Shown: positions 15,169 to 18,204 of the stretch, piece after piece | Numbering within the stretch: position 1 is the first letter of the stretch | How the letters are laid out: each line of letters starts with the position of its first letter | Origin: Eremothecium cymbalariae DBVPG#7215 | Taxonomy: Eukaryota; Ascomycota; Saccharomycetes; Saccharomycetales; Saccharomycetaceae | Length of the DNA: 64,000 bases | Direction of reading: 5' to 3' | Assembly: GCF_000235365.1 (NCBI RefSeq) | Contig: NC_016452.1 | Coordinates: forward strand, 1,288,001-1,352,000 | Notes under the pieces: model-generated | The model's input: only the letters and a program-made list of their open reading frames with translations | What the model was told of the DNA's origin: nothing | Database searches by the model: none | Made by a program: the position numbers and the translations under genes

Positions 15169-15174
15169 ACGCGT
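15169..15174. promoter_or_regulatory. MCB core inside a 10-bp palindrome
   Basis: ACGCGT within TAACGCGTTA, about 510 bp upstream of the AT-hook gene ATG. ACGCGT is the core bound by MBF (Mbp1-Swi6), which drives G1/S transcription. Confidence 0.4.
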
Positions 15175-15309
15175 TATGTATCAGATGATAGCCTCCGCAT
15201 AGTTTCCTACCAATTATTCAAACTTCTATAATTCGACTAACCACCCACATCCTTTTACAACTATTCAGATGCTCAAAAAAGTGCAGAACACTATATGATG
15301 ATCTTAAAG

Positions 15310-15330
15310 ACGCGTCAAACAGTGACGCGT
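15310..15330. promoter_or_regulatory. Inverted pair of MCB elements
   Basis: ACGCGTCA (15310-15317) and its exact inverse TGACGCGT (15323-15330) are separated by 5 bp. Both match the full MCB consensus ACGCGTNA. They lie about 355 bp upstream of the next gene's ATG and suggest G1/S expression through MBF. Confidence 0.55.
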
Positions 15331-15681: not shown

Positions 15682-18204
15682 ATGCAAGGCCAGAAGCCTG
15701 AGAATAAGAAAGAGAGGTATGGTGCTGCTTTCGTGTCCAGTGTTAATGAAAGGCTTGCAAACGAACCCAAGAAACGTGGCAGACCCAAAAAGGGAGCTAT
15801 GGAATCTGGGAATGAAACAAATAAGGTGGATATAAAAGGGTTGTCAACAGAAGGGAAACTTATAGGAAATGCATCTTTGTCAGATTCTGATGAAAGCTAT
15901 GGGATTAGTGGGGGGAAGCGACCAAGAGGAAGGCCTAGAATTCATCCTCCTGTTGAAAACAAAATGAAGAAGTCACGTGGAAGACCGAGAAAGGAAACCC
16001 TTGATAGTAAGAAACTGCAGGAGGATCTTGACTCACAGCCTATTGTAACCTACCGAATGAGACCCTCGAGTCATTCTGCTACTGTTGGTGATGATCAGTC
16101 ATTGGTTAAACGCGGTCCTGGCAGACCACGGAAGATACCTATTGCATCTGAAGCGCCTACCCAGGTGGTTGAGGGAAAGAGAAAACCAGGTAGGCCACGA
16201 AAGAACCCAGCAGAAGCTCTAAAATCAAATAGTGAACCTTCAGTTAGAAGAGGCCCCGGTAGACCGAGGAAAAGTGTTGTCATTTCGAGTGAAAATGCGG
16301 TGCCTGAAGTGAAGCGGGGTCCAGGAAGACCAAGAAAGTCCATTTTTGATGCTTCTGTAAGTACTAACAATGCTTCAACAAGATACTCTCAGACTACACA
16401 TAGCGGAACACGTACTCAAGGTTTAACGAGTTCTGATACGAAGTCTCGGAAGGAGCCCAACACAAAGAATTCTACGTTGCACACAACAGAAGAAACTGCT
16501 AAGCAAAGTTCTGAAAGAGATGAAGGTTCGTCCAGAATTTCCAACTCGTATAAAAGTAACTTATTCAGTTCCCAAAGTTATTTCCATAATGGTGATTATA
16601 AAAGTGTTTTGTTAAATAGGCGAGATATTAAAAGGCCTAAAAGTAATCGTGGGATAGAAGATACCAATAAATTTGCTGCAGAAACTCCAAAACGAGACGC
16701 CCATGATTTGGATCTAACTTCTTCGGCAGAAAAGCAAATCATACACAAAGGAAAACATTTGCGTGAATCTAGCAGGTCCCTTAGATCAATGCGTGAATTA
16801 AGAAGCTCGGTGACCTCTATTTCAGATCTTTCCGATCTGTCACAGTCATCTGGATCTGGAGTAGGTGGCACCTTTTCTCCTGAAGAGAATGCGATAAATA
16901 TTAGGGGCTCCAGCAGTACTTCAAACGAAGGGCAGTATACTCATACCAAAGAGGATATACGTCGTCCAAATATTTCTAGTACCAGTTCTATTTTGGATTC
17001 AACAAAAAAGAAGAGGAAATTGAAAAAGACGGGTACTATTATTTTGTCAGAGGAAATACCTAAATGGGAGGCTGCAGCACTCAAAAAAAGATCTAACTCT
17101 GAGAGTTCGAATAAAAGTATTGTATTGGACTTTGCAAAAAGTCGTCTTTCTTCACCTCAGACCGAGCTAGCCGCCAATAGGCCTAACTCAAAGAATACAA
17201 TCTTGGACGATAGTTATGACACATTTGAATTCAGCAGTAATGGGAACAGTGGCTTCGTAATACCTCCAGATGCCTTCAAGTCGCCTCGAAAAATAAAACC
17301 TACCGTGGATGTCGAAAAGAAACAGACTGGTATTTTAGGAATTATCAAAGGAACAGCTCAATCCTTACAATCCATGTCCAGATCACCGAGACATATTTCA
17401 ATTGGAAAAATAAGTAGCAGCCTCGATGTAATAGACACAAATATCCAGTTGAGTGATAATGAAAGCGAAGTTAACTCTAATTTCTCAACACCTGTGGCTA
17501 GTCCTAAATCGGTTCCGCATCTTAGGCCACGTAAACAAATGCATCATTTTGTAATTGATGATGTTGCATCAGAAAGTGAGTCTGAATCATCTGCAACCCA
17601 AGTCTCTGCAACACACTCAATTGCATCAAACTACGTTTCGCAAGCGGTAACAGGTGCTCAAGTACAATCTGTTGCTCCCAAATCCTCTAGAATTGAAAAG
17701 TTAACTATAGATAAGAGTGTATTACTCTCAGATAATTTCCAGTTACAAGATCATGGAACCCCGGAGACTTACAGTTCAAAAAATTGCGATTCTCGGAACC
17801 AAACAGCAAATATGGAAATCCCTGAACCGTTTGAAAGCCTTCCTAGTTGGAATTCTTTGCCAAATACTAGTTTTGATAATACAAATAAAGATAGAATTAT
17901 GTTGAGCAATTTTTTGCATGGTCTACTGAAATATATTAACGTCAACGATGCAAATCTGAACCGGGATATTGATGGCAATATTAATTACTTTATTCAACAG
18001 ATGCCCGGAAACGAATTAGATATGACATTTGCAGAATGGTTAGACCATAAAGTTAGAGAATTGAAAGATGAATATCTGAAGGAACTTGTTAAGAAGAAGG
18101 AACTTTTGTTAAAGCAATTCAGGGCTTCTGAGGAAATGGTTAAAAATATTACCGATGGTAAAATATTACTTGAACTTGCTGAACGGTTTGAAATTTATTA
18201 TTAA
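15682..18204 (+). CDS. AT-hook protein in the BIR1 position, without BIR domain
   Basis: The 840-residue protein carries seven AT-hooks (GRP cores near residues 33, 83, 100, 147, 170, 193 and 215, mostly as GPGRPRK), so it should bind the minor groove of AT-rich DNA. A Ser-rich disordered middle follows, with a basic stretch KKKRKLKK and several S-P-x-[KR/H]-type CDK sites (FKSPRK, SRSPRH, VASPKS). The last 110 residues look folded: a helix at LSNFLHGLLKYINV and a long amphipathic helix from LDMTFAEWLDHKVRELKDEY to the end. It lies between TIF5 and GRR1, where S. cerevisiae has BIR1 (the survivin subunit of the chromosomal passenger complex). A BIR domain is excluded: only one cysteine is present (in KNCDSRN). 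Either it is a rebuilt Bir1 keeping only the C-terminal Sli15/Nbl1-binding part, or an unrelated gene. The frame opens at a GTG (15598); the first ATG is 15682. Confidence 0.75.
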   Translation: MQGQKPENKKERYGAAFVSSVNERLANEPKKRGRPKKGAMESGNETNKVDIKGLSTEGKLIGNASLSDSDESYGISGGKRPRGRPRIHPPVENKMKKSRGRPRKETLDSKKLQEDLDSQPIVTYRMRPSSHSATVGDDQSLVKRGPGRPRKIPIASEAPTQVVEGKRKPGRPRKNPAEALKSNSEPSVRRGPGRPRKSVVISSENAVPEVKRGPGRPRKSIFDASVSTNNASTRYSQTTHSGTRTQGLTSSDTKSRKEPNTKNSTLHTTEETAKQSSERDEGSSRISNSYKSNLFSSQSYFHNGDYKSVLLNRRDIKRPKSNRGIEDTNKFAAETPKRDAHDLDLTSSAEKQIIHKGKHLRESSRSLRSMRELRSSVTSISDLSDLSQSSGSGVGGTFSPEENAINIRGSSSTSNEGQYTHTKEDIRRPNISSTSSILDSTKKKRKLKKTGTIILSEEIPKWEAAALKKRSNSESSNKSIVLDFAKSRLSSPQTELAANRPNSKNTILDDSYDTFEFSSNGNSGFVIPPDAFKSPRKIKPTVDVEKKQTGILGIIKGTAQSLQSMSRSPRHISIGKISSSLDVIDTNIQLSDNESEVNSNFSTPVASPKSVPHLRPRKQMHHFVIDDVASESESESSATQVSATHSIASNYVSQAVTGAQVQSVAPKSSRIEKLTIDKSVLLSDNFQLQDHGTPETYSSKNCDSRNQTANMEIPEPFESLPSWNSLPNTSFDNTNKDRIMLSNFLHGLLKYINVNDANLNRDIDGNINYFIQQMPGNELDMTFAEWLDHKVRELKDEYLKELVKKKELLLKQFRASEEMVKNITDGKILLELAERFEIYY

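Follow-up and report, generated by a model that had tools for sequence, protein, structure and literature searches.

A Bir1 orthologue of Eremothecium cymbalariae that lacks BIR domains and carries conserved AT-hook motifs

The defining feature of survivin is its BIR domain, and the Bir1 proteins of Saccharomyces eubayanus and S. uvarum carry two BIR stretches by Pfam. A different arrangement is described for Arabidopsis BORI1 and BORI2, in which a survivin-like helix is kept in the complex and another chromatin reader, an FHA domain that reads H3T3ph, replaces the BIR domain (excerpts of PMC10987093). The available part of a 2026 review states that the budding-yeast complex is recruited otherwise than in human and fission yeast (PMC13051603). 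A survey of 20 yeasts places BIR1 among the genes with one or more losses (PMC7531349), and the BIR1-like pseudogenes CAGL0Mp1 and ZYRO0Gp11, by their prefixes C. glabrata and Z. rouxii genes, have been listed (PMC2876123). The Zygosaccharomyces parabailii BIR1 requires a +1 frameshift (PMC5433688), and therefore some BIR1 'pseudogenes' may be working genes; calls of BIR1 loss such as CAGL0Mp1 and ZYRO0Gp11 in yeast surveys may need review. No earlier description of a BIR-less, AT-hook-bearing Bir1 was found in the open-licence literature searched.

In a 64-kb stretch of E. cymbalariae DNA (the window), an open reading frame encodes a Bir1 orthologue that carries seven AT-hook motifs and no BIR domain (Table 1). 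If the binding roles proposed below hold, this protein would work like plant BORI, with a survivin-type helix coupled to another reader; however, its putative reader is a set of DNA-binding hooks and, unlike BORI1 and BORI2, it comes from an orthologue of the BIR-bearing Bir1 genes. Our preferred explanation, to which we give a probability of about 0.5, is that the hooks came first, that the BIR domains were lost later in the common Kluyveromyces-Eremothecium line, and that the hooks tether the complex to AT-rich centromeres.

Table 1. Coordinates of the features at the Bir1 locus, as positions in the window
Feature	Position	Strand	Basis
Stretch with three ACGCGT boxes (15169, 15310, 15325)	15169..15330	.	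motif search
BIR-less Bir1 orthologue, 840 aa	15682..18204	+	translation and similarity search
AT-hook 1, residues 30-37, RGRP core	15769..15792	+	motif
AT-hook 2, residues 79-86, RGRP core	15916..15939	+	motif
AT-hook 3, residues 96-104, RGRP core; eroded in E. sinecaudum	15967..15993	+	motif
AT-hook 4, residues 143-151, PGRP core	16108..16134	+	motif
AT-hook 5, residues 166-174, PGRP core	16177..16203	+	motif
AT-hook 6, residues 189-197, PGRP core	16246..16272	+	motif
AT-hook 7, residues 211-219, PGRP core	16312..16338	+	motif
Mid-protein motif, residues 505-528	17194..17265	+	alignment of Bir1 proteins
C-terminal Bir1 module, residues 735-838	17884..18195	+	BLASTP; predicted fold
Predicted 39-residue helix, residues 783-821	18028..18144	+	structure prediction

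Orthology to Bir1 and lack of BIR domains

The neighbouring genes were examined by Pfam. TIF5, TIP41 and Erv1 were clear matches, the EMC2-like gene was weak (TPR_EMC2 below the cut-off, TPR_14 just over it), and the F-box-like domain of the GRR1-like gene was just over the cut-off. The sequence-only reading had placed the gene at the BIR1 locus on account of EMC2, TIF5 and GRR1, and the flanking genes agree with this. These surroundings correspond to the BIR1 neighbourhood in the S. cerevisiae gene order.

The similarity searches gave the same assignment. The nearest relatives were the E. gossypii and E. sinecaudum proteins, matched over nearly the full length (E 1.7e-152 and 2.4e-149), followed by BIR-bearing Lachancea proteins and the K. 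lactis 'Bir1'. In BLASTP, residues 735-838 (104 aa) were 39% identical to the C-terminus of the BIR-bearing S. eubayanus survivin (E 3e-24), and residues 474-528 also matched that protein (E 5e-6). Against the BIR-bearing Lachancea-like protein P0004, the C-terminus and the mid part gave 4e-27 and 3e-22 in BLASTP, and phmmer gave 1.0e-31. Moreover, a separate match to Saccharomyces survivin (8e-16) was obtained with residues 395-778, the C-terminal half of K. lactis Bir1, as the query. A family profile compared with solved survivins matched via the BIR of the BIR-bearing members, and none of the matches came via the C-terminus. By sequence as well as by position, the gene is a Bir1 orthologue, and its C-terminal module, of which the long helix was tentatively linked to Bir1 in the sequence-only reading, is homologous to that of BIR-bearing Bir1. 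An element of the mid part, [IL]-D-D-S-x-D-x-F-x-F followed by G-x-S-x-F-x-I-P, was present in all 19 Bir1 proteins aligned, BIR-bearing or BIR-less, and is a candidate docking motif.

The translation agrees with the predicted 840-residue protein with a single cysteine. The Pfam scan of this protein returned no family at E<=10, AT_hook included, and Pfam named no BIR in the other two Eremothecium Bir1 proteins. When the six frames of the window were scanned with a BIR HMM made from six Bir1 BIR regions, nothing convincing was obtained (best E 1.8). The gap between TIF5 and the ATG, at 574 bp, could not accommodate two BIRs, and it contained no instance of the four splice patterns tried, in line with the claim that no BIR-coding frame lies upstream. 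The genome (8 contigs, 9,669,424 bases; 8 chromosomes and 9671 kb in the part of the genome paper available, PMC3276169) was searched exon by exon, and scoring was confined to the top candidates from a permissive initial pass, at most one for each query. L. fermentati Bir1 matched only this locus, via its C-terminal (9.9e-22) and middle (1.5e-7) parts, and its BIR part had no match in the whole genome at E<=10. S. eubayanus Bir1 likewise matched only this locus, and only via the C-terminus (1.5e-20). A BIR-only query found no match in the whole genome; because this search lacked a positive control, its null result proves little alone. Across these three queries no other BIR gene, the counter-case named in the sequence-only reading, was found elsewhere in the genome. 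With one cysteine in 840 residues, no Pfam BIR, and none in the window or genome searches, no zinc-binding BIR was detected, and the orthologue should therefore not be classified among the BIR-domain proteins.

The CDK-type S-P-x-K/R sites that had also been pointed out do exist, as two [ST]-P-x-[KR] sites, but the wording was generous, the total of [ST]-P being eight.

AT-hooks and their distribution among Bir1 proteins

An AT-hook is a GRP core flanked by basic residues (PMC11354804, partial text), and seven motifs of E. cymbalariae Bir1 have this form. Their GRP cores lie at residues 33, 83, 100, 147, 170, 193 and 215, all within residues 30-219 and all with basic flanking residues; three are RGRP and four are PGRP, the latter differing from the RGRP of HMGA-type hooks. 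Among 2,000 composition-preserving shuffles, the GRP count averaged 0.18 and reached 3 at most, compared to the seven observed. The Pfam AT_hook cut-off was passed by 5 of 17 Bir1 proteins (K. lactis P0006, P0087, P0008, P0080 and P0083), and the model matched none of the three Eremothecium proteins. The seven AT-hooks announced for residues 30-220 were thus recovered by the motif scan, on which the hook call rests because the Pfam model is unmatched.

Across the three Eremothecium sequences, invariant columns made up 37 of 42 within the hooks and 30 of 193 in the rest of the same region. The corresponding values were 30/36 versus 44/309 in four Kluyveromyces-type proteins and 16/24 versus 88/351 in eight Lachancea-type proteins; the alignment was motif-guided and biased toward hook invariance, but the gap to the other columns was nonetheless wide. 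The identity to E. gossypii Bir1 was 63% at residues 721-840, 53% at 441-600 and 41% in the hook region (25-225), and was lowest at 601-720 (37%) and 226-440 (27%). At the level of sequence, the hooks are strongly conserved in Eremothecium Bir1. AT-hooks can also provide general chromatin or nuclear targeting.

For the distribution, 20 Bir1 proteins were compared (3 Eremothecium, 5 Kluyveromyces-type, 10 Lachancea or Lachancea-like and 2 Saccharomyces), six of which were assigned to their groups by similarity. The GRP count was seven in each Eremothecium protein, 3-7 in the Kluyveromyces-type proteins, 3-4 in all ten Lachancea or Lachancea-like proteins and zero in both Saccharomyces proteins; in E. 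sinecaudum, one of the seven lies outside the N-terminal cluster. A BIR was named in 12 of 12 Lachancea-type and Saccharomyces proteins and in none of the eight Eremothecium and Kluyveromyces-type ones, as called by Pfam scans for 17 proteins and from precomputed domain lists for P0079, P0082 and P0084, the Kluyveromyces statement applying to annotated proteins only. P0086 (618 aa) appears to be cut at the N-terminus, so its BIR lack says little, and P0079 (680 aa) has no C-terminus.

The S. eubayanus and S. uvarum Bir1 proteins, unlike E. cymbalariae Bir1, have no GRP hooks, but in Saccharomyces and E. cymbalariae Bir1 the C-terminal module and the mid-protein motif are common to both. Lachancea Bir1 shares the AT-hooks, the mid motif and the C-terminus with E. 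cymbalariae Bir1; however, it retains two BIR stretches before its 3-4 hooks. The K. lactis protein, named Bir1 at NCBI, resembles that of E. cymbalariae in being BIR-less and in having hooks (here above the Pfam cut-off), the mid motif and the C-terminus, whereas the Kluyveromyces-type proteins differ in hook spacing and in an N-terminus of their own (MN....SS.MDLSF.S in 4 of 5). In a tree of 19 proteins (P0079 omitted), the eight BIR-less proteins lay on one side of a branch with a support of 91/90; the tree program sets its threshold at 95/80, which this branch does not reach, and the tree was rooted at its midpoint only. P0004 weakly adjoined the BIR-less group (63/44).

Since the hooks of the Lachancea-type proteins follow intact BIRs, the hooks most simply predate the BIR loss, and an early gain of hooks with a single later loss of BIRs is the simplest reading of these sequences. 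Two separate BIR losses in the BIR-less lines and a loss of hooks in Saccharomyces are possible alternatives. A simple swap of BIR for hooks, as had been supposed, does not fit the Lachancea-type proteins, which have both, and the hook-bearing BIR-less Bir1 is not peculiar to this genome but common to the other Eremothecium and the annotated Kluyveromyces proteins. Ordered from BIR alone, via BIR together with hooks, to hooks alone, the compared proteins form a natural series in which the chromatin-reading part would have been rebuilt in a central mitotic complex.

Partners, centromeres and haspin

Residues 735-838 are expected to be the part that binds Sli15 and Nbl1. Helices were predicted at residues 729-754 and 783-821, and the pLDDT of the long helix block was about 82-86, although the C-terminal model was overall middling (pLDDT 70.5, pTM 0.44). 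A Foldseek search with this model gave no match, and VIA-align with the same middling-confidence model gave one weak row. A long amphipathic C-terminal helix had been proposed; the helix at 783-821 was predicted, but its amphipathicity was only mild, the helical moment being reached by 234 of 5,000 shuffles. Genes for INCENP/Sli15 (E 3.2e-18; its N-terminus starts MDWAIK after an upstream stop), shugoshin (1.6e-11) and Ndc10 (2.3e-58) were present in the genome. Nbl1 was not found in the genome search, which is no proof of absence because the gene is small and possibly intron-bearing.

A strict CDEI-CDEIII pattern had three sites in the genome and none in the reversed control, and a looser one had five sites on five of the eight contigs, compared to three in the reversed control. 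The five centromere cores (contigs C1, C3, C4, C5 and C8) had 174-176 bp between CDEI and TTCCGAA and were 86-92% A+T; their 2-kb flanks were 70-74% AT versus 58.7% for the window. Each core was AT-richer than all 12,765 overlapping 175-mers of the 64-kb window, the richest of which reached 81%. According to the parts of the published work available, the E. cymbalariae CDEII is about 160 bp, twice the S. cerevisiae length (PMC3276169), and that of K. marxianus is 165 bp (PMC12226651). The E. gossypii genome is 52% GC with its centromeres in GC-poor troughs (PMC3276169, in part); seven hooks are retained in this species, and a centromere-seeking role would therefore be suited to them. From base composition, the AT-rich centromere cores are a plausible target of the Bir1 hooks.

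The sole near full-length haspin match was on contig C1 (905963-907021, E 1.6e-80). Over the whole match it aligned with human haspin at E 1.1e-8 and read FEHRFLNLSHILL where the human protein has FEHRDLHWGNVLL, so that in the catalytic loop HRF stands for HRD (Asp to Phe) and His for Asn. The Asp and Asn of this loop have catalytic roles. The loop stretch was weak alone (8.7 bits), though matching residues flank it. Compared with human haspin only, the C1 protein is a possible pseudokinase with a degenerate loop. A second match over the cut-off, on contig C6, was partial and had ordinary kinase motifs.

We infer that Bir1 would bind DNA, target centromeres and bind its partners along the following lines. 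In the Lachancea/Kluyveromyces/Eremothecium group, Bir1 would have gained AT-hooks in the linker after its BIRs; the common Kluyveromyces and Eremothecium line would then have lost the BIRs, so that Bir1 begins near its hooks. The C-terminal helices would still join Sli15 and Nbl1, and the mid-protein motif, or a segment close to it, would keep a kinetochore contact, perhaps with Ndc10. The hooks would add a multivalent grip on the minor groove, most simply of the approximately 165-bp CDEII and its AT-rich surroundings, and would thereby anchor the complex at centromeres independently of H3-tail reading. The chromosome-segregation complex may thus hold AT-rich DNA directly through Bir1; since Ndc10 is present, the hooks may be accessory. 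A bolder version, which we consider doubtful, is that multivalent minor-groove binding of Bir1 to CDEII places the Aurora B complex in Kluyveromyces and Eremothecium, a composition reader having replaced the histone-mark pathway (BIR lost, haspin disabled) and perhaps coevolved with the doubled CDEII. The matter may bear on why the CDEII of K. lactis and E. gossypii is about twice the S. cerevisiae length. Both species are genetically tractable and could show whether DNA composition positions Aurora B.

Competing explanations for the loss of the BIR domains

It is very improbable that a BIR exon, a frame-shifted segment or a separate BIR gene was simply overlooked. The +1 frameshift of Z. parabailii BIR1 (PMC5433688, in part), the exon-by-exon genome search with at most one scored candidate per query, and the absence of seven chromosome ends from the published assembly (PMC3276169, in part) leave room for such an artefact, but the six frames of the window, the 574 bp upstream and the three genome queries all spoke against it, as did the BIR-less state of the other two Eremothecium proteins. 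A true loss could have followed the loss of the ligand. With a degenerate haspin, H3T3ph would be missing as a mark for the BIR, and the hooks would simply have persisted. The replaced Asp and Asn in the only near full-length haspin point this way, and the degenerate loop is a clue that fits a loss of histone-mark reading. Nevertheless, we regard this explanation as improbable: the loop stretch scores little alone and was compared with human haspin only, yeast haspin has other roles such as polarity (PMC7876276, partial text), and the conservation of the hooks is left unexplained. It can, however, be combined with our preferred explanation.

A tentative alternative of more weight is that the targeting by Bir1 became nearly dispensable and the BIR was lost for this reason, with Ndc10 (and Sgo1/H2A) targeting the complex and the hooks serving in general DNA or nuclear retention. 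The accessible sections of published work favour it in several respects. Recruitment via Bir1:Nbl1 is redundant with recruitment via COMA, budding yeast can dispense with haspin-like kinases and Sgo1, and Ndc10 is a potential receptor (PMC13051603); Ndc10 and phospho-H2A are named as centromere contacts of Bir1 (PMC6546395, PMC5592945), and biorientation does not need the recruitment of Bir1/Nbl1 (PMC12170873). The BIR1-like pseudogenes (PMC2876123) and BIR1 losses (PMC7531349) cited above, and the Ndc10 gene of E. cymbalariae, agree with it as well. However, the good conservation of the hook columns and the C-terminus shows that the protein is not in decay, and the Z. parabailii frameshift suggests that some of the 'pseudogenes' may function (PMC5433688). 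Since the recruitment in budding yeast is, in the portion of the review available, independent of H3T3ph, the reading of histone tails may have been unimportant before the BIR was lost. A direct replacement of histone reading by DNA reading, as proposed, is overstated and not covered by the evidence, because published results in budding yeast point to Ndc10 rather than H3T3ph as the route (PMC13051603).

Three ACGCGT boxes were observed within the 574 bp 5' of the Bir1 gene, where about 0.14 would be expected with equal base frequencies. We take ACGCGT to be the MCB, an MBF-type G1/S promoter element, and the boxes hint at a possible G1/S control of the gene.
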